From contig NZ_LGSZ01000025.1 in the NCBI RefSeq assembly GCF_001298265.1, positions 62,001-126,000 of the forward strand: DNA of 64,000 bases. The letters are read 5' to 3'. Every line of letters begins with the position of its first letter. Within the stretch, counting starts at the first letter, position 1. Positions 44,180-52,522 of this stretch are shown here, piece after piece. Position numbers and translations under genes: made by a program. The notes beneath the pieces are model-generated. The model did not search any database and was not told the DNA's origin. It worked only from the letters and a program-made list of their open reading frames with translations. This stretch comes from Allobosea vaviloviae. GTDB taxonomy: Bacteria; Pseudomonadota; Alphaproteobacteria; Rhizobiales; Beijerinckiaceae.

Positions 44180-45403
44180 TCAGATGATGTTGGTTTCCAG
44201 CAGCGGCCTGCCCTCGACGATACGCTCATGGCCGAGATCGGACAGATCGAGGCTGCGATAGCCGCCATGCAATATCTGCTCGGCGAGCCCGCGCCCGACG
44301 GCGGGGCATTGCTGCAGACCATGGCCGGAGAAGCCATTGGCGAGATAGAGCCCCTTCACGCCGATGGCGGGGCCGATGATCGCGTTATGGTCGATCTCGT
44401 TCATGTCGTAGGGACCGGCCCAGGCCCGGCCCGGCTTGATCTGCTCGAAGGCGGGGATGCGGTGCGCGAGCGCCGGCCAGACCGTCTCCTCGAAGAAATC
44501 CCACTGGACGTCCTCGACCGACGGATCGGTCTCGACCCATTCCTCGTCCTGCTCGGCGGTGAGCGGCGAGCAGCTGCCGATGAAGAGCTGGCCGTCGCTG
44601 CCGCGCTTGCCCTCCGGCCGGCACCAGGAGCCCGAGCGGTCGATCAGCAGCGGGCAGTTCTCGATCTCTCCCTTGCAGAGGAACGAGAAGACATAGCGCT
44701 TCATCGACCGCACGGGGATGTCGACGCCCGCCGTGGCCGCAAGCCTGGCGCCATGGGTGCCCGAGGCATTGACCGCCGCGCCGCAAGCGATGCGGCTGCC
44801 ATCGGTCAGCTCGACGCCGGTGACGCGGCCGGCCTCGACGACATAACGAGCGACCTCGCCCTGGCGATACTCGACGCCGAGCGCGCGCGCCTTCTTGCGA
44901 AAGGCTTGCAACACCGCCCAGCCGTCGAACCAGCCTTCGCCGCTGACGCCAAAGGTGCCGCAGGCGATATCCTCGACGTTCATCCAGGGAAATTTGCTGC
45001 GCAACATGGGTGCAGCATAAAGTGCAATATCGGCGCCCTCGGCAGCCTGCAAAGCCTGGTTCGCGGCCAGCACCGGCGCGCCTTCGTCACCGGCGAGATA
45101 GAGATATCCGCCCTCGTGCAGATCGATGACCGGAGCCTCGCCATCGACGGCGAGATGGCTGCCGATGTTGCGCAGGAAGTCGATGCCATGCAGCGAGATG
45201 CGGATGTTCACGGCGCTGGAATACTGCTGGCGGATCGACGCCGCCGACAGCGCCGAGGCGGCATAGCGATAGGTCGGGTCCTTCTCGACCACCACGACCT
45301 TGCCCTTGAAGCCTGGATCGTTCGCCAGATGATAGGCGACCGAGGAGCCGATCGCGCCGCCTCCACAAATAACGACATCGGCGGTCTCGGAGGAAGACGA
45401 CAT
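44180..45403 (-). CDS. FAD-dependent oxidoreductase of the D-amino acid oxidase (DAO) family
   Basis: This 407-residue flavoprotein has the FAD-binding motif VVICGGGAIGSSVAYHL near residue 10 and VVVVEKDPTYRYAASALSA as the second strand, then WFDGWAVLQAF and a C-terminal GLYLANGFSGHGLQQCPAVG segment typical of sarcosine/glycine oxidase-like and FOXRED1-like proteins. It should oxidise a secondary or primary amino acid. Its position next to a lysine/glutarate operon makes an imino acid such as pipecolate a candidate substrate, but nothing in the sequence proves this. Confidence 0.88.
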   Translation of the reverse strand: MSSSSETADVVICGGGAIGSSVAYHLANDPGFKGKVVVVEKDPTYRYAASALSAASIRQQYSSAVNIRISLHGIDFLRNIGSHLAVDGEAPVIDLHEGGYLYLAGDEGAPVLAANQALQAAEGADIALYAAPMLRSKFPWMNVEDIACGTFGVSGEGWFDGWAVLQAFRKKARALGVEYRQGEVARYVVEAGRVTGVELTDGSRIACGAAVNASGTHGARLAATAGVDIPVRSMKRYVFSFLCKGEIENCPLLIDRSGSWCRPEGKRGSDGQLFIGSCSPLTAEQDEEWVETDPSVEDVQWDFFEETVWPALAHRIPAFEQIKPGRAWAGPYDMNEIDHNAIIGPAIGVKGLYLANGFSGHGLQQCPAVGRGLAEQILHGGYRSLDLSDLGHERIVEGRPLLETNII

Positions 45404-45493: not shown

Positions 45494-46408
45494 TCAGTTT
45501 GCCGCAACGCACTCGCCGAGCAGCCAGTCGCGGAAGGCGATCACCGCGGGAAGCTCGGCGCGGGTTTCCGGATAGACCAGATAATAGCCCTCGGAGCCTG
45601 TGACCGGCCGGTCGAAGGGGATGATCAACGAGCCGGAGCGCAGTTCCTCCTCGATCAGGAATCGCGGCACGATGGCGAGGCCGAGACCGGCGACGGCAGC
45701 CTGCGAGACCATGGCGAACTGCTCGAAGCGCGGCCCCATCAACGCGCGCTGCGGCGGCAGGCCCTGCTGTTCCAGCCAGTTCGCCCAGGCGCGCGGCCGG
45801 GTCGACTGCTGGAGGAGGGAGCCCCGCAGCATGTCGGCGGGCTCCTTCAGCCCGAGCCGCGCCACCAGCGAGGGCGCCGCAACGGGCACGATCTCCTCGC
45901 CCATCAAACGGTGCAGCCGCGCGCCGGGCCAGACGGGGTCGCCGAAGTGGATCGCGGCGTCGAGCTGCTCCCGGCCGAAGTCGAAGGGGACGAGCTTCGT
46001 GGCGAAATTGATGGTGATGCCGGGATGCGCCTCGGTGAAGCGCGGCAGGCGCGGGATCAGCCAGCGCGTCCCGAAGGTTGGCAGAATGGCGAGATTCAGC
46101 ACACCGCCCGCGCCGCGAAACGCCATGGCCGAGACGGTCGCCGCCGCCAGCCGTGACAACCCGTCACGGATTTCCGCCGCATAGGCGCTGCCAGCCGGCG
46201 TCAGGCTGACACGCTGGCGGACGCGCTGGAACAGCCCGACGCCCAGCACCTTCTCGAGATGGGCGATCTGCCGGCTGATCGCCCCTTGGGTCAGGTTGAG
46301 CTCCTCGGCCGCGCGCGTGAAGCTGCCATGGCGCGCCGCAGCCTCGAAGGCCGCCAGCGCCGACAGTGACGGGACCGAAAGACGGCCGGGGACGATCTCG
46401 AAATCCAT
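45494..46408 (-). CDS. LysR family regulator, GcvA/GcdR-like, divergent from the glutarate operon
   Basis: This 304-residue LysR protein resembles the GcvA branch: LSALAAFEAAARHGSFTRAA and LTQGAISRQIAHLEKVLG form the DNA-binding domain, and the effector domain has LPTFGTRWLIPRLPRF and QLDAAIHFGDPVWPGA. It faces the aminoadipate semialdehyde / glutaryl-CoA genes across a 250-bp gap that contains an inverted repeat. In Pseudomonas a LysR protein, GcdR, controls gcdH-gcdG with glutarate as signal; the same role here is a reasonable inference. Confidence 0.9.
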   Translation of the reverse strand: MDFEIVPGRLSVPSLSALAAFEAAARHGSFTRAAEELNLTQGAISRQIAHLEKVLGVGLFQRVRQRVSLTPAGSAYAAEIRDGLSRLAAATVSAMAFRGAGGVLNLAILPTFGTRWLIPRLPRFTEAHPGITINFATKLVPFDFGREQLDAAIHFGDPVWPGARLHRLMGEEIVPVAAPSLVARLGLKEPADMLRGSLLQQSTRPRAWANWLEQQGLPPQRALMGPRFEQFAMVSQAAVAGLGLAIVPRFLIEEELRSGSLIIPFDRPVTGSEGYYLVYPETRAELPAVIAFRDWLLGECVAAN

Positions 46409-46504: not shown

Positions 46505-46628
46505 AGCCCTCATCCTGAGGAGCAAGGCTTTTGGGCCTTGCGTCTCGAAGGATGCTCCAGATGGCCCAAAGCCTCCTGAAGCATCCTTCGAGACGCGATC
46601 CGTTGGATCGCTCCTCAGGATGAGGGCT
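46505..46628. repeat. Intergenic palindromic repeat, second family (CTCATCCTGAGGAG type)
   Basis: It starts CCCTCATCCTGAGGAGC and ends CTCCTCAGGATGAGGGC. Inner arms GTCTCGAAGGATGCT and AGCATCCTTCGAGAC are perfectly paired. This family is distinct from the GTCAT...ATGAC elements elsewhere in the window, and I recall near-identical sequences as common in other Rhizobiales. It lies 33 bases upstream of the aldehyde dehydrogenase start, inside the expected leader. Confidence 0.9.
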
Positions 46629-46660
46629 TTCAGCGGCCCATAGAACGTCAGGCTTTGAAT

Positions 46661-48181
46661 ATGACCTCTCCCCTGCCACAAGATGCGCTCGCGCTTCTCA
46701 AGCGCCTCGGCGTCAGCGATGCCGTCTTCGCTTCGACCGGCCTTTCTGCACACTCGCCGATCACGGGCGAGACGGTCGCGACGTTGAAGGAGACCAGCGC
46801 CGCCGAGGCCGAGGCCGCGATCGGCCGGGCGCAGTCGGCGTTCCTGCTCTGGCGCAAGGTTCCGGCGCCACGCCGCGGCGAGTTCGTGCGCCTGCTCGGC
46901 GAGGAGCTGCGCGCCGCCAAGGACGATCTCGGCCTTCTGGTGACACTGGAAGCCGGCAAGGTCACCTCCGAGGGCCTCGGCGAGGTCCAGGAGATGATCG
47001 ACATCTGCGACTTTGCGGTCGGCCTGTCGCGCCAGCTCTACGGCCTGACCATCGCGACCGAGCGCCCCAAGCACCGCATGATGGAAACCTGGCATCCGCT
47101 CGGCGTCTGCGGCGTGATCTCGGCTTTCAACTTCCCGGTCGCGGTCTGGTCGTGGAATGCGGCGCTCGCCTTCGTCTGCGGCGACAGCGTCGTCTGGAAA
47201 CCTTCCGAGAAGACGCCGCTGACCGGCATCGCCGTGCAAGCCATCGTCGAAAAGACGATGAAGCGCTTTGGCCCCGAGGCCCCTGCGGGTCTGTCGGAGA
47301 TCCTGATCGGCGGCCGCGAGATCGGCGACATCCTCGTCAGCGATCATCGCGTCCCGGTTGTCTCGGCCACCGGCTCGACGCGGATGGGCAAGGAGGTCGG
47401 CCAGAAGCTCGCCAGCCGCTTCGCCCGCGCCATCCTCGAACTCGGCGGCAACAATGCCGCGATCGTGGCACCGTCCGCCGATCTCGACGTCGCCCTGCGC
47501 GGCATCGCCTTCGCGGCGATGGGCACGGCCGGCCAGCGCTGCACGACGCTGCGCCGTCTGATCGTGCATGAGAGCGTCTATGACGCGCTGATCCCCAAGC
47601 TCATCAAGGTCTATGCTAGCGTGAAGATCGGCGATCCGCGCGAAGCGGGCGTGCTGGTCGGCCCGCTGGTCGATGAAGCCGCCTATAAGGGCATGCAGGC
47701 GGCGCTGTCGGAGGCGAAGGCTGCCGGCGGCACCGTCCATGGCGGCGAGCGCGTCACGGTCGGAACCGGCGGCTTCTATGTCCGCCCCGCGATCGTCGAG
47801 ATGCCCGCGCAGACCGGCCCGGTCGCACGCGAGACCTTCGCGCCGATCCTCTACGTCATGAAATACACGTCGCTGGACCAGGCCATCGCCATCCAGAACG
47901 ATGTCGGCGCCGGCCTGTCATCCTCGATCTTCACGCTCGACATGCGCGAGGCCGAGAGCTTCATTTCGGCCGAAGGTTCCGACTGCGGCATCGCCAACGT
48001 CAATATCGGCCCGTCGGGTGCCGAAATCGGCGGGGCCTTTGGCGGCGAGAAGGAAACCGGCGGCGGTCGCGAGGCCGGCTCGGATGCGTGGAAGGCCTAT
48101 ATGCGCCGCGCCACGAATACGCTCAACTACGGCACGACATTGCCGCTGGCGCAGGGCGTCAGCTTCGATGTGGATGCGTGA
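46661..48181 (+). CDS. Aldehyde dehydrogenase, ALDH7/AmaB type (aminoadipate-semialdehyde / piperideine-6-carboxylate dehydrogenase)
   Basis: This NAD-dependent aldehyde dehydrogenase (506 aa) has general base Glu260 (ELGG) and nucleophile Cys294 (GTAGQRCTTLRR). NVNIGPSGAEIGGAFGGEKE and RRATNTLNYGTTLPLAQG at the C-terminus are hallmarks of the antiquitin/AmaB branch, which oxidises 2-aminoadipate 6-semialdehyde formed from lysine or pipecolate. Glutaryl-CoA dehydrogenase and a CoA-transferase follow, so the operon covers the ends of the pathway. The start is at MTSPLP; the in-frame TTG six bases earlier is less likely. Confidence 0.92.
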   Translation: MTSPLPQDALALLKRLGVSDAVFASTGLSAHSPITGETVATLKETSAAEAEAAIGRAQSAFLLWRKVPAPRRGEFVRLLGEELRAAKDDLGLLVTLEAGKVTSEGLGEVQEMIDICDFAVGLSRQLYGLTIATERPKHRMMETWHPLGVCGVISAFNFPVAVWSWNAALAFVCGDSVVWKPSEKTPLTGIAVQAIVEKTMKRFGPEAPAGLSEILIGGREIGDILVSDHRVPVVSATGSTRMGKEVGQKLASRFARAILELGGNNAAIVAPSADLDVALRGIAFAAMGTAGQRCTTLRRLIVHESVYDALIPKLIKVYASVKIGDPREAGVLVGPLVDEAAYKGMQAALSEAKAAGGTVHGGERVTVGTGGFYVRPAIVEMPAQTGPVARETFAPILYVMKYTSLDQAIAIQNDVGAGLSSSIFTLDMREAESFISAEGSDCGIANVNIGPSGAEIGGAFGGEKETGGGREAGSDAWKAYMRRATNTLNYGTTLPLAQGVSFDVDA

Positions 48182-48192
48182 TCCAATAGCGC

Positions 48193-48285
48193 GTCATTCT
48201 CGGGCGAAGCGCAGCGCAGACCCGAGAATCTCTTGGACCAGATAGCTGGTTTCCGAGATGGTCGGGTCAAGCCCGACCATGACGG
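48193..48285. repeat. Intergenic palindromic repeat, copy 12
   Basis: It starts GTCATTCTCGGGCGAAGCG and ends GCCCGACCATGACGG. The same modules occur as in the copies at 369-479 and 2261-2353, including the spacer GCTGGTTTCCGAGATG shared with copy 2 in part. It lies between the aldehyde dehydrogenase and glutaryl-CoA dehydrogenase genes. Confidence 0.86.
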
Positions 48286-48308
48286 CAGAACGACAAGGGA
48301 GAAACCAG

Positions 48309-49526
48309 ATGGCCGAAGCCGCCCGCAGCCACAGCACCAGCCACAAGCTGGCCGAATTCACCTGGGACGACGCGTTCCTGCTCGACGACCAGCTCTCGGA
48401 AGACGAGCGCCTGATCCGCGACACCGCGCGCGATTTTGCGCAGGAGAAGCTGCAGCCGCGGATCTCGGAAGCCTATCTCGACGAGAAGACGGACCGCTCG
48501 ATCTTCAACGAGATGGGCGAGCTCGGCCTGCTGGGCGTCACCGTCCCGGAAGAATATGGCTGCGCCGGCGCCAATTACGTCTCCTACGGGCTGGTCGCGC
48601 GTGAGGTCGAGCGCGTCGATTCCGGCTATCGCTCGATGATGTCGGTCCAGTCCTCGCTGGTGATGTATCCGATCTACGCCTATGGCGACGAGAGCCAGCG
48701 CAAGAAGTACCTGCCCAAGCTCGGCTCGGGTGAATGGGTCGGCTGCTTCGGCCTGACCGAGCCCGATGCCGGCTCCGACCCGGCGGGCATGAAGACCCGC
48801 GCCGAGAAGGTCGCCGACGGCTACAGGCTGACCGGTTCGAAGATGTGGATATCGAACTCGCCGATCGCCGACGTCTTCGTCGTCTGGGCGAAGTCGGCCG
48901 CGCATGACAACCAGATCCGCGGCTTCATCCTCGAGAAGGGCATGAAGGGGCTGTCGGCCCCGAAGATCGGCGGCAAGCTCAGCTTACGCGCCTCGATCAC
49001 CGGCGAGATCGTCATGGATGGCGTGATCGTTCCCGAGGAGAACCTGCTGCCCAACGTCTCAGGCCTGAAGGGTCCGTTCGGCTGCCTCAACCGCGCCCGC
49101 TACGGCATTTCCTGGGGCGTGATGGGCGCGGCGGAAGACTGCTTCCACCGGGCGCGCCAGTACGGGCTCGACCGCAAGCAGTTCAACAAGCCGCTCGCCC
49201 AGACGCAGCTCTTCCAGAAGAAGCTCGCGGACATGCTCACCGAGATCTCGCTCGGCCTGCAGGGCTCACTTCGCGTCGGCCGGCTGATGGACGAGGGCAG
49301 GATGGCCCCGGAGATGATCTCGCTCGTCAAGCGCAACAATTGCGGCAAGGCGCTCGACATCGCCCGCCAGGCCCGCGACATGCATGGCGGCAACGGCATC
49401 TCGATCGAGTACCACGTCATGCGCCACGCCGCGAACCTCGAGACGGTGAACACCTATGAGGGCACGCATGACGTCCATGCGCTGATCCTCGGCCGGGCGA
49501 TCACCGGGCTGCAGGCGTTCTTCTGA
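48309..49526 (+). CDS. gcdH: Glutaryl-CoA dehydrogenase
   Basis: This FAD acyl-CoA dehydrogenase (405 aa) oxidises and decarboxylates glutaryl-CoA to crotonyl-CoA. [19 protein letters not shown] opens the protein; [16 protein letters not shown] is the characteristic glutaryl-CoA dehydrogenase segment; [13 protein letters not shown] is the acyl-CoA dehydrogenase signature; the catalytic Glu lies in [15 protein letters not shown]. The ATG at 48309 has AAGGGAGAA upstream. A CoA-transferase gene that would supply its substrate is downstream. Confidence 0.95.
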
Positions 49527-49668: not shown

Positions 49669-50859
49669 ATGACTTCAGCCCCTCCCCTCGCCGGCCTGCG
49701 CGTCCTCGAACTCGCGCGCATCCTCGCTGGGCCCTGGATCGGCCAAGTGCTGGCCGATCTCGGCGCCGACGTCGTCAAGGTGGAGGCGCCCGAGGGCGAC
49801 GACACCCGCACTTGGGGACCGCCCTTCGTCGAAAGCGAGGACGGCGAGAACCTGTCGGCCGCCTATTTCCACTCGGCCAATCGCGGCAAGCGCTCGATCA
49901 CCGCTGATTTCCGGACGCCGGAGGGCCAGGCGCTGGTGCGCCGGCTCGCCGCCCATGCCGATATCGTGGTCGAGAATTTCAAGGTCGGTGGCCTCACGAA
50001 ATACGGGCTCGATGCCGCCTCGCTGCGGGCGGAGTTCCCCCGTCTTATCTATTGTTCCGTCACCGGCTTCGGCCAGACCGGACCTTATGCGCCCCGCGCC
50101 GGCTACGACTTCCTGGTTCAGGGCATGGGCGGGGTGATGTCGCTGACGGGCGAGCCCGACGGGGCCCCGATGAAGGCCGCCTATGCGACCGCCGACATCT
50201 ATACGGGGCTTTACGCCACGATCGGCGTCCTCTCGGCGCTGCGCCGGCGGGACGCGACCGGCGAGGGTGCTGCGCTCGACATGGCTCTGCTCGACAGCCA
50301 GATCGCCGTGCTCGGCAACCAGGCGCTGAACTATCTCGTCTCCGGCCGATTGCCGCAGCGTCTTGGCAACGCCCACCCCAACATCGTGCCCTACGATGTG
50401 TTTCCGGTCGCGGACGGCCACATCATCATCGCCACCGGCAATGACGGGCAGTGGCGCAAGCTCTGCGAGGTCCTGGGCGAGCCGATGCTGGCCGACGAGC
50501 CCGGCTACATCGACAACCGCTCGCGGGTGAAGAACCGCGTGGCGTTGACCGAGCACCTGCACACGCTCACCCAGCGCCATCTCAAGGCCGATCTGCTGGC
50601 GGCGCTGGAAAAGCTCGGCGTTCCCGCCGGCCCGATCAACGGCGTCGACGAGGTCTTCGCCGACCGCCAAGTTCTGGCGCGCGGCGTCCGCGTCGATCTG
50701 GCGAGCGACGTCGCGAAGGGCGGGAGTATCCCGACCGTCGCCTCGCCCATCGTCATGGACGGCGTGAGGCAGGTCTCGCCGCGCCCGAGCCCGCAACTCG
50801 GCGAACACGCCGCTGAGATCCTGAACGATCCGGCCTGGGGAGGGCCGCAACATGGCTAA
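49669..50859 (+). CDS. CaiB/BaiF family CoA-transferase, probable succinyl-CoA:glutarate CoA-transferase
   Basis: This class III CoA-transferase (396 aa) has GLRVLELARILAGPWIGQVL at the N-terminus, the CoA-binding NRGKRSITADF segment, and the catalytic aspartate at Asp176 in ATADIYTGLYA. RAGYDFLVQGMGG and NIVPYDVFPVADGHIIIATG are typical of the glutarate/dicarboxylate branch. Next to gcdH it most likely activates glutarate to glutaryl-CoA (GcdG role). Its last 8 bases overlap the start of the ThDP-enzyme gene, which ties that enzyme to the same pathway. Confidence 0.9.
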   Translation: MTSAPPLAGLRVLELARILAGPWIGQVLADLGADVVKVEAPEGDDTRTWGPPFVESEDGENLSAAYFHSANRGKRSITADFRTPEGQALVRRLAAHADIVVENFKVGGLTKYGLDAASLRAEFPRLIYCSVTGFGQTGPYAPRAGYDFLVQGMGGVMSLTGEPDGAPMKAAYATADIYTGLYATIGVLSALRRRDATGEGAALDMALLDSQIAVLGNQALNYLVSGRLPQRLGNAHPNIVPYDVFPVADGHIIIATGNDGQWRKLCEVLGEPMLADEPGYIDNRSRVKNRVALTEHLHTLTQRHLKADLLAALEKLGVPAGPINGVDEVFADRQVLARGVRVDLASDVAKGGSIPTVASPIVMDGVRQVSPRPSPQLGEHAAEILNDPAWGGPQHG

Positions 50860-52522
50860 TCGCACCGGCGGGCAGATCCTCGTCGACCAACTCCTGATCC
50901 ATGGCGCGACCGACGCCTTCTGCGTGCCGGGCGAGAGCTATCTCGCCGTGCTCGACGCGCTGCATGATGCTTCGTTGAAGGTCACCATCTGCCGGGCCGA
51001 GGGCGGCGCCTGCATGATGGCGGAAGCCGCCGGCAAGCTGACCGGCAAGCCGGGCATCTGTTTCGTCACGCGCGGGCCCGGCGCCACCAACGCCTCACCC
51101 GGCATCCATATCGCCGATCAGGATTCGACACCGCTGATCCTGTTCGTGGGCCAGATCGAGCGCGGCATGCGCGAGCGCGAGGCCTTCCAGGAGCTCGACT
51201 ACCGCGCCGTCTTCGGCACCATGACGAAATGGGCCACCGAGATCGACGATGCCGAGCGCATCCCCGAGATCATCAGCCGCGCCTTCCATGTCGCCACCTC
51301 CGGCCGGCCCGGCCCGGTCGTGATCGCGCTGCCCGAGGATGTGCTGACCGACCTCGCCGATGTGGCCGATGCGCAGCCCTATCAGGTCACCGAAACGCAC
51401 CCCTCGCTGCTACAGACCATCGACCTGCAGAAGCGCCTCTGGGCGGCGAAGTCGCCCGTCGCGATCCTGGGCGGCTCGCGCTGGGATCCGCAGGCGATCG
51501 CGCGCTTCCAGCGCTTCGCGGAGCGCTTCGACCTGCCGGTCGCGGTCTCGTTCCGGCGGCAGATGCTGTTTCCGGCCGACCATCCGAACTTCGCCGGCGA
51601 TCTCGGCATCGGCCCCAATCCGAAGCTGCTGAAGCGCATCCAGGACAGCGATCTCGTCCTGCTCGTCGGCGGGCGGCTGTCGGAGATGCCGAGCCAGTCC
51701 TACACGCTGTTCGGAATCCCCAATCCGGGCCGGCCGCTGGTGCATGTCCATCCCGATGCCGAAGAGCTCGGCAGGGTCTACCGTCCGTCGCTGGCGATCA
51801 ACGCCTCCCCGACCGCGTTTTGCGCCGCGCTCGAGACCGTGCATCCGCCGCAGGAGATTCCGTGGGCCGGCGCCGCCGCCGAGGCGCATGAGAGCTATCT
51901 CGGCTGGAGCGGCCAGCCCGCGCCGGTCGCCGGCACTTTCCATCCCGGCGAGATGGTGACCTGGCTGCGCCGGCAGCTGCCCGACGACGCCATCATGTGC
52001 AACGGCGCCGGCAACTACGCGACCTGGGTGCATCGCTTCCACCGATTCAACAAGTTCGCGACGCAGCTCGCGCCGACATCGGGGTCGATGGGCTATGGCG
52101 TGCCGGCCGCGATCGGTGCGAAGCGCTTGTTTCCCGAGCGCACCGTGATCGCCTTTGCCGGCGATGGCTGCTTCCTGATGAACGGGCAGGATTTCGCCAC
52201 CGCCGTGCAATATGACCTCGCGGTCATCGTCATCGTCGTCGACAACGGCATGTACGGCACGATCCGCATGCACCAGGAGCGGCACTACCCCGGCCGCGTC
52301 TCGGCGACCACGCTGAAGAACCCCGATTTCGCGGCCTATGCGAAGGCCTTCGGCGGCCATGGCGAACGTGTCGAGACCACCGCCGAATTCGGCCCGGCCT
52401 TCGAACGCGCGGTGGCATCGGGCAAGCCTTCGATCATCCACTGCCTGCTCGATCCGGAGGCGATCACGCCGGCGAAATCGCTGTCGACGATCAGGGCGGA
52501 GGCACTTGCGGCACAGGGCTAG
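50852..52522 (+). CDS. Thiamine pyrophosphate-binding enzyme (acetolactate synthase-like) coupled to the glutaryl-CoA genes
   Basis: This complete three-domain ThDP enzyme of the POX/IlvB family (556 aa) has Glu50 in CRAEGGACMMAEAAG as the cofactor-activating glutamate. The ThDP motif starts at AFAGDGCFLMNGQDF and ends with VVDNGMYG. The middle domain (190-330) contains AILGGSRW and is intact. There is no small subunit gene, so biosynthetic acetolactate synthase is unlikely. The 8-bp overlap with the glutarate CoA-transferase suggests a step in lysine/2-oxoadipate breakdown, such as 2-oxoadipate decarboxylation to glutarate semialdehyde. That is a hypothesis; the sequence alone supports only a 2-oxoacid decarboxylase-like enzyme. 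Confidence 0.85.
   Translation: MANRTGGQILVDQLLIHGATDAFCVPGESYLAVLDALHDASLKVTICRAEGGACMMAEAAGKLTGKPGICFVTRGPGATNASPGIHIADQDSTPLILFVGQIERGMREREAFQELDYRAVFGTMTKWATEIDDAERIPEIISRAFHVATSGRPGPVVIALPEDVLTDLADVADAQPYQVTETHPSLLQTIDLQKRLWAAKSPVAILGGSRWDPQAIARFQRFAERFDLPVAVSFRRQMLFPADHPNFAGDLGIGPNPKLLKRIQDSDLVLLVGGRLSEMPSQSYTLFGIPNPGRPLVHVHPDAEELGRVYRPSLAINASPTAFCAALETVHPPQEIPWAGAAAEAHESYLGWSGQPAPVAGTFHPGEMVTWLRRQLPDDAIMCNGAGNYATWVHRFHRFNKFATQLAPTSGSMGYGVPAAIGAKRLFPERTVIAFAGDGCFLMNGQDFATAVQYDLAVIVIVVDNGMYGTIRMHQERHYPGRVSATTLKNPDFAAYAKAFGGHGERVETTAEFGPAFERAVASGKPSIIHCLLDPEAITPAKSLSTIRAEALAAQG

Follow-up and report, generated by a model that had tools for sequence, protein, structure and literature searches.

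The DNA examined here is a 64,000-nucleotide stretch of Allobosea vaviloviae (GCF_001298265.1, contig NZ_LGSZ01000025.1, positions 62,001 to 126,000 of the forward strand; hereafter the window), and the subject is a gene at 50852-52522 (+) for a thiamine diphosphate (ThDP)-dependent enzyme, a candidate 2-oxoadipate decarboxylase. The gene begins with an ATG, has a GGAGG shortly before it and encodes 556 aa free of internal stops. Its start overlaps by 8 bp (50852-50859) the open reading frame of a class III coenzyme A (CoA)-transferase of the CaiB/GcdG type (49669-50859, +), which follows the genes for AmaB, an L-piperidine-6-carboxylate/aminoadipate semialdehyde dehydrogenase (46655-48181, +), and for glutaryl-CoA dehydrogenase (gcdH, 48258-49526, +), giving the order aldehyde dehydrogenase, gcdH, CoA-transferase and ThDP enzyme on one strand. 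Divergent from this operon is a LysR-type regulator of the GcvA subfamily (45494-46408, -; NF008352, 293.5 bits, cut-off 288), and also on the minus strand is a flavin adenine dinucleotide (FAD)-dependent oxidoreductase (44180-45403, -; PF01266, DAO), a candidate 2-aminoadipate or pipecolate dehydrogenase, a role suggested by its recurring place beside the enzyme. The next gene after the ThDP gene, cytochrome b561-like and on the opposite strand, overlaps its 3´ end. No gene for an acetolactate synthase small subunit lies immediately beside the ThDP gene, the rest of the window not having been searched for one, and the statement in a preliminary description of this DNA that there is none stands for the immediate neighborhood.

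The other features named in that description, an intact enzyme of the POX/IlvB fold overlapping a glutarate CoA-transferase gene by 8 bp, downstream of an AmaB-like aldehyde dehydrogenase and gcdH, were all borne out. The enzyme carries all three ThDP-enzyme domains (PF02776, PF00205 and PF02775) and belongs to the PRK08199/NF006052 subfamily, scoring 907.6 bits against a curated cut-off of 539; five homologues (L065, L058, L031, L226 and L225) score 902.6-926.4 bits with the same model, which bears no functional assignment. AmaB scores above the cut-off of the curated model for L-piperidine-6-carboxylate dehydrogenase (NF050084, 812.3 bits against 730). In phmmer searches of the PDB, the gcdH product (PF02771/PF02770/PF00441) matched best an entry named "acyl-CoA dehydrogenase" (4w9u, 743 bits), followed by the glutaryl-CoA dehydrogenases 3gnc (622 bits) and 1sir (589 bits). 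The CoA-transferase is closest to the succinate-glutarate type, with a score of 585.8 bits for NF052585 that is below the cut-off of 750, and its PDB matches include a CaiB/BaiF family protein (4ed9, 476 bits) and a succinate--hydroxymethylglutarate CoA-transferase (9br6, 298 bits).

Linkage of the enzyme gene to lysine and glutarate genes

We scored the enzyme gene as linked when a gene for AmaB (55% identity), GcdH (65%), CaiB (50%), saccharopine dehydrogenase (45%) or the FAD oxidoreductase (44%) was found within 7 kb, with thresholds that were fixed after a first look at the data. In the best 80 of 587 confirmed matches, a set biased to close relatives, 78 loci had such a lysine or glutarate gene. 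These comprise 28 loci with AmaB, GcdH, CaiB, FAD oxidoreductase and LysR genes; 23 from Microvirga, in which AmaB and FAD oxidoreductase are joined by a saccharopine-dehydrogenase-like gene (Pfam-tested in two loci, recognized in the others by at least 45% identity); 20 from Alcaligenaceae, where the linked gene is that for GcdH; and seven with other mixtures. The two misses were L031, where the LysR gene alone passed, and L060, which is cut by a contig end. The nearest named relatives are from Bosea, and in all 30 of the loci L001-L030 AmaB, GcdH, CaiB, the ThDP enzyme and the FAD oxidoreductase are encoded together, with the LysR gene present in 28.

More distant relatives were sampled at three levels. 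At class level, 140 of 385 genomes held a total of 149 matches with an E-value no worse than 1e-150; of 100 of these loci, mostly one per genus with some paralogues, five were linked (L118, L125, L169, L178 and L179), all by direct adjacency at 11-121 bp, with the order saccharopine dehydrogenase-ThDP-AmaB in L169 and GcdH-CaiB-ThDP in L178. At order level there were 64 matches, from 58 of the 111 genomes searched, and seven of 40 further loci (L257-L296, about 58% identity or more) were linked. In two of these, L263 and L271, AmaB, GcdH, CaiB, the ThDP enzyme and the FAD oxidoreductase are encoded on one strand with LysR divergent, the oxidoreductase relative (59% identity) lying directly 3´ of the ThDP gene. 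By a rough uniform-placement estimate, 0.45 adjacent pairs would be expected for the five observed in 100 class-level loci and 0.18 for the seven in 40 order-level loci. Judged from coordinates alone, a CaiB gene scoring at least 522 bits lies 3-542 bp from the enzyme gene in 10 of the 58 order-level genomes, the source genome included.

Of eight plasmid loci picked by hand from 199 records, six were linked: those of Methylobacterium, Rhizobium leguminosarum and Shinella through CaiB, that of Azospirillum through AmaB, and those of Rhizobium BT03 and S. fredii NGR234 through the FAD oxidoreductase alone. The CaiB gene of R. leguminosarum is 13 bp upstream of the ThDP gene and its product passes NF052585 (793.6 bits against 750), and the Azospirillum AmaB, the product of the sole gene that comes after the ThDP gene in the same orientation, passes NF050084 (817.9 against 730). 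A tree of 80 hand-picked rows, 19 of its forks being open, implies at least 10 switches of the adjacency state. Linkage that is repeatedly gained or lost, with varying partners, fits functional coupling better than a single inherited block.

The presence of the enzyme in the 111 order-level genomes also parallels that of some lysine genes, in statistics that ignore genome size and kinship. AmaB and the enzyme occur together in 28 genomes, the enzyme without AmaB in 30, AmaB without the enzyme in nine and neither in 44 (p=0.0006). For the saccharopine-dehydrogenase C-terminal family, whose members include other enzymes too, the corresponding counts are 48, 10, 20 and 33 (p=2e-6).

Several loci show variant arrangements. 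In L027 and L038, a dihydrodipicolinate-reductase-like and a TraX/acyltransferase-like gene separate gcdH from caiB, assignments that were Pfam-tested for L038 alone. The FAD oxidoreductase gene is directly upstream of the enzyme gene in L227 (Rhizobium sp. BT03) and L230 (S. fredii NGR234), at 46-47% identity, and the BT03 locus has oxoprolinase and aminotransferase genes upstream. The relative in S. meliloti Ak57 (L228) is in two pieces in the assembly and has no CaiB gene beside it.

A candidate route from 2-oxoadipate to glutaryl-CoA

The gene content suggests a route for lysine breakdown in which the substrate and product of the ThDP enzyme, and the parts played by the FAD oxidoreductase and a semialdehyde dehydrogenase, are proposed from sequence. 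AmaB would convert piperidine-6-carboxylate/aminoadipate semialdehyde to 2-aminoadipate, from which the FAD oxidoreductase, or an aminotransferase encoded elsewhere, would form 2-oxoadipate. The ThDP enzyme would cleave 2-oxoadipate to glutarate semialdehyde and CO2, and an aldehyde dehydrogenase, perhaps AmaB itself, would oxidize the semialdehyde to glutarate; AmaB is a candidate for this step because in Azospirillum no other gene than that for AmaB follows the enzyme gene in the same orientation. The CoA-transferase, which is required only when the pathway passes through free glutarate, would then make glutaryl-CoA, and GcdH would convert this to crotonyl-CoA. We hypothesize, with moderate confidence, that the 50852-52522 product is a ThDP-dependent non-oxidative 2-oxoadipate decarboxylase giving glutarate semialdehyde.

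A related reaction sequence has been reported in cyanobacteria, where, in the available parts of the two reports, a ThDP-dependent 2-oxoglutarate (alpha-ketoglutarate) decarboxylase non-oxidatively decarboxylates a 2-oxodicarboxylate to the semialdehyde (PMC10418658), which is then oxidized by a dehydrogenase (PMC5160925). A ThDP decarboxylase and an aldehyde dehydrogenase would in the same manner convert 2-oxoadipate to glutarate, as the cyanobacterial pair does one carbon lower. The likeness drawn here is one of reaction, and the cyanobacterial decarboxylase differs in its substrate, which is one carbon shorter, in its role in the tricarboxylic acid cycle and in its phylum.

Two other exits from 2-oxoadipate are described in the accessible portions of earlier work. 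In Pseudomonas putida the HglS route of lysine breakdown likewise begins from 2-oxoadipate (PMC7286885), but HglS is an iron enzyme with 2-hydroxyglutarate as its product, and it has no match in the source genome. The animal 2-oxoadipate dehydrogenase complex (DHTKD1) also uses 2-oxoadipate toward glutaryl-CoA (PMC9367764), but as a multi-enzyme complex that yields glutaryl-CoA directly, for which a CoA-transferase is not needed. The missing HglS match and the finding of a single full 2-oxoglutarate dehydrogenase-type E1 in the source genome both speak for the decarboxylase. In Phaeobacter, 13C label from lysine was found in 2-aminoadipate and glutarate, with 2-oxoadipate undetected in the part of the report available (PMC5653290). 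This labeling does not decide the route, since according to the same part Phaeobacter also has a 5-aminopentanoate route.

An alternative is that the enzyme belongs to a broad family of 2-oxo(di)acid decarboxylases and that its substrate in this operon is another lysine-derived 2-oxoacid. It could, for example, be 6-amino-2-oxocaproate, which the FAD oxidoreductase would form from lysine and which would pass through 5-aminopentanal and 5-aminovalerate to glutarate. This would account for the FAD amino-acid-oxidase-like gene that repeatedly adjoins the enzyme gene and for the occurrence of family members in several other contexts. However, an AmaB that passes the piperidine-6-carboxylate dehydrogenase model, and the saccharopine-dehydrogenase-like gene found beside the ThDP gene in the 23 Microvirga loci and in L169, both lead to 2-aminoadipate rather than to 5-aminopentanal, and we consider this alternative unlikely.

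Family placement and active-site residues

Fifty-seven NCBIfam models matched the enzyme. Among the 25 listed, for which scores were considered, the 24 other than NF006052 are far under their cut-offs, including those for sulfoacetaldehyde acetyltransferase and 2-ketoarginine decarboxylase. The model for AruI, 5-guanidino-2-oxopentanoate decarboxylase (PRK07524), is a separate one that gave 226.3 bits of the 500 needed; AruI resembles the proposed enzyme in that it is a catabolic ThDP decarboxylase whose 2-oxoacid substrate derives from a basic amino acid.

A tree of 133 rows was built from 124 homologues, E. coli IlvI, IlvB, Gcl, PoxB and Oxc, and four ThDP paralogues from the source genome; three of its branches are long and possibly misplaced, PoxB and the paralogue L083 among them. 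The 124 homologues form a single group on a long stem (2.22 changes per column), apart from all five E. coli enzymes and the four paralogues, so that the comparison with acetolactate synthase and oxalyl-CoA decarboxylase proposed in the preliminary description places the window enzyme with neither. Within this group, the window enzyme falls in a set of 31 rows that we refer to as the lysine clade, some members of which are unlinked to lysine genes. Because the best solved sequence match, a catabolic acetolactate synthase, scores only 234 bits, no close relative has a solved structure. An AlphaFold2 model of the enzyme (mean pLDDT 80, pTM 0.83) matches many solved ThDP enzymes, foremost BbmA, a carboligase of 26% identity (TM 0.83 normalized to the query), together with acetohydroxyacid synthases, with 2-hydroxyacyl-CoA lyase structures also among the fold matches.

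The residues of the ThDP/Mg site, the catalytic Glu (E50), G437-D438-G439 and N465, are kept in all 31 lysine-clade rows and all 93 other rows. Residue 279 of the window enzyme is Met, at a column where IlvI, IlvB and Gcl share an Arg that we take to be the acceptor-site Arg of acetolactate synthase; Met occurs there in 48% of lysine-clade rows and the column is otherwise variable. At position 474 all 31 lysine-clade rows and 96% of the 93 others have His, and IlvI has a Trp. A correspondence between Lys471 of the Microcystis enzyme and His474 here came from GDG-motif spacing only and was not counted as evidence.

These data bear on whether the enzyme is instead a carboligase of the acetolactate synthase or glyoxylate carboligase kind, present in this operon by chance. 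In sequence it is nearest, among solved structures, to acetolactate synthases, and its top fold matches are BbmA and acetohydroxyacid synthases, as such an enzyme would show. The scores for the acetolactate synthase models are far under their cut-offs, however (TIGR00118, 325.2 bits against 538.35; TIGR02418, 254.2 against 551.1), the family stands on its own stem, the Arg at column 279 and the Trp at 474 are not kept, no small-subunit gene lies immediately beside the enzyme gene, and adjacency to lysine genes is repeated, which together make a carboligase improbable. The curated scores and the tree likewise disfavor acetolactate synthase, glyoxylate carboligase and pyruvate oxidase as identities of the enzyme. 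An oxidative variant, in which a pyruvate oxidase-like enzyme would pass electrons to flavin and quinone and convert 2-oxoadipate to glutarate without a semialdehyde, would fit an operon with no dedicated semialdehyde dehydrogenase and the distant relation to pyruvate oxidase. Yet the score for that model is far under the cut-off (PRK08611, 255 bits of 742), and the aldehyde dehydrogenase genes 3´ of the enzyme gene in Azospirillum (AmaB) and Diaphorobacter (another aldehyde dehydrogenase) fit an aldehyde product, leaving this variant improbable. An oxalyl-CoA decarboxylase or 2-hydroxyacyl-CoA lyase acting on a CoA thioester from the neighboring CoA-transferase would be in keeping with the two protein classes that adjoin in frc-oxc and with the lyase structures among the fold matches, but is highly improbable given that the CoA-transferase scores 208.5 bits of the 504 required for formyl-CoA transferase, against 585.8 for succinate-glutarate CoA-transferase, and that E. 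coli Oxc clusters with a different gene of the source genome, away from the window enzyme.

Possible relation to biotin synthesis and to other lysine-degrading bacteria

A decarboxylase of this kind could also account for a step in biotin synthesis. In Agrobacterium, according to the available part of the report, biotin is made from lysine, 2-oxoadipate or glutarate and caiB is required (PMC7645780), which suggests that 2-oxoadipate is converted to glutarate. The CaiB-BioZ route resembles the one proposed here in that glutarate, fed by 2-oxoadipate, is converted to glutaryl-CoA by such a CoA-transferase. It differs in that the same part of the report assigns no enzyme to the step from 2-oxoadipate to glutarate, for which the PRK08199 family is a candidate. 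We tentatively suggest, with less assurance than for the window enzyme itself, that lysine-clade PRK08199 enzymes carry 2-oxoadipate toward free glutarate in many alphaproteobacteria, as well as in some betaproteobacteria, and that in Rhizobiaceae they also feed the glutaryl-CoA primer of BioZ in biotin synthesis. No description of a 2-oxoadipate decarboxylase was found in the accessible parts of the literature searched, whose coverage leaves out most subscription journals, and the available portions of PMC5653290 and PMC9007349 name no such enzyme.

If the hypothesis is correct, it would give a substrate to a large ThDP family now named just "thiamine pyrophosphate protein" and add a bacterial exit from 2-oxoadipate, through decarboxylase, semialdehyde, glutarate and CoA-transferase. 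It would explain why a glutarate CoA-transferase is retained by HglS-less bacteria that degrade lysine via 2-aminoadipate, fill in the 2-oxoadipate-to-glutarate enzyme in the route underlying Agrobacterium biotin synthesis and be of possible use in making glutarate from lysine.

Observations that weigh against 2-oxoadipate as the substrate

A number of observations count against assigning 2-oxoadipate decarboxylation to the window enzyme. The first concerns HglS, which was matched in two of the 111 order-level genomes and in 15 of the 385 class-level genomes, by partial matches only in seven of the 15; the enzyme is also present in nine of those 15. In the genome G407, a close relative of R. 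leguminosarum in the 80-row tree, HglS is encoded about 1.7 kb from AmaB, while the CaiB-ThDP pair is on another contig (contigs C1115 and C1559). This pair is the best-scoring, with CaiB, which passes its curated model, 12 bp from the ThDP enzyme gene, and two exits from 2-oxoadipate may therefore coexist in G407. The coexistence of HglS and the enzyme in nine of 15 genomes and the proximity of HglS to AmaB in G407 somewhat weaken both the assignment for the window enzyme and its extension to the lysine clade. The 2-oxoglutarate dehydrogenase whose full E1 the source genome encodes may itself accept 2-oxoadipate; such redundancy is described in mammals in the accessible part of PMC7002488.

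The linkage and co-occurrence data include further exceptions. At the thresholds used, 95 of the 100 class-level loci and 33 of the 40 order-level loci are unlinked, the latter including relatives of 68-70% identity (L257-L262). The 95 class-level loci without lysine genes do not support a single function for the whole PRK08199 family, whose wider membership probably covers a mix of functions. Clustering the neighbors of the 100 class-level loci yielded no single alternative context, in an analysis where gene picking was noisy and the counts were left unused. Some relatives keep other company, such as those of Rhizobium BT03 and Diaphorobacter. In the latter (L224, 64%), the genes that come next encode the aldehyde dehydrogenase mentioned above, a binding protein of a tripartite tricarboxylate transporter and an FAD-linked oxidase, and this relative perhaps acts on another 2-oxoacid. 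For CaiB at the search threshold, co-occurrence with the enzyme is not significant (44 genomes with both, 14 with the enzyme only, 31 with CaiB only and 22 with neither; p=0.068), and it becomes so only under a post hoc cut that keeps CaiB matches scoring 560 bits or more (26, 32, 3 and 50; p=2e-6). Nine of the 58 order-level genomes with the enzyme have no AmaB or CaiB match.

No dedicated glutarate semialdehyde dehydrogenase was identified in the operon, and the active-site comparison of 31 and 93 rows revealed no carboxylate-binding residue specific to the lysine clade; Arg 74, 109, 395 and 472, which could hold the distal carboxylate, are conserved across the family. The linkage to lysine and glutarate genes that the preliminary description put forward as a check extends through the close relatives (78 of 80), recurs with other lysine genes in some distant ones and fails in most of the latter. 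Its proposal of a 2-oxoadipate decarboxylase is supported in part: it draws strength from that close linkage, the absence of an HglS match, the single full E1 and the separate family, and is weakened by the coexistence with HglS and the patchy linkage farther away.

Other features of the window and genome

Between the LysR gene and amaB, at 46505-46628, is a nested palindrome in which perfect arms of 19 nt, separated by 86 nt, enclose arms of 26 nt. It holds CATCCTGAGGAGC twice, against 0.16 expected in the window, and resembles a REP-type repeat. A weak ThDP-enzyme match crosses the start of the window, covering positions 1-366 and the contig just before (G000:C89:60810-62366), with a TGA inside the alignment. 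The same genome also encodes a second, distant ThDP enzyme, the paralogue L083 (G000:C5:41956-46623), which has 622 aa and is below the cut-offs of the 25 listed models. Its gene lies 20 bp from a saccharopine-dehydrogenase-like gene whose product is 49% identical to that of the Microvirga AmaB-ThDP operon.

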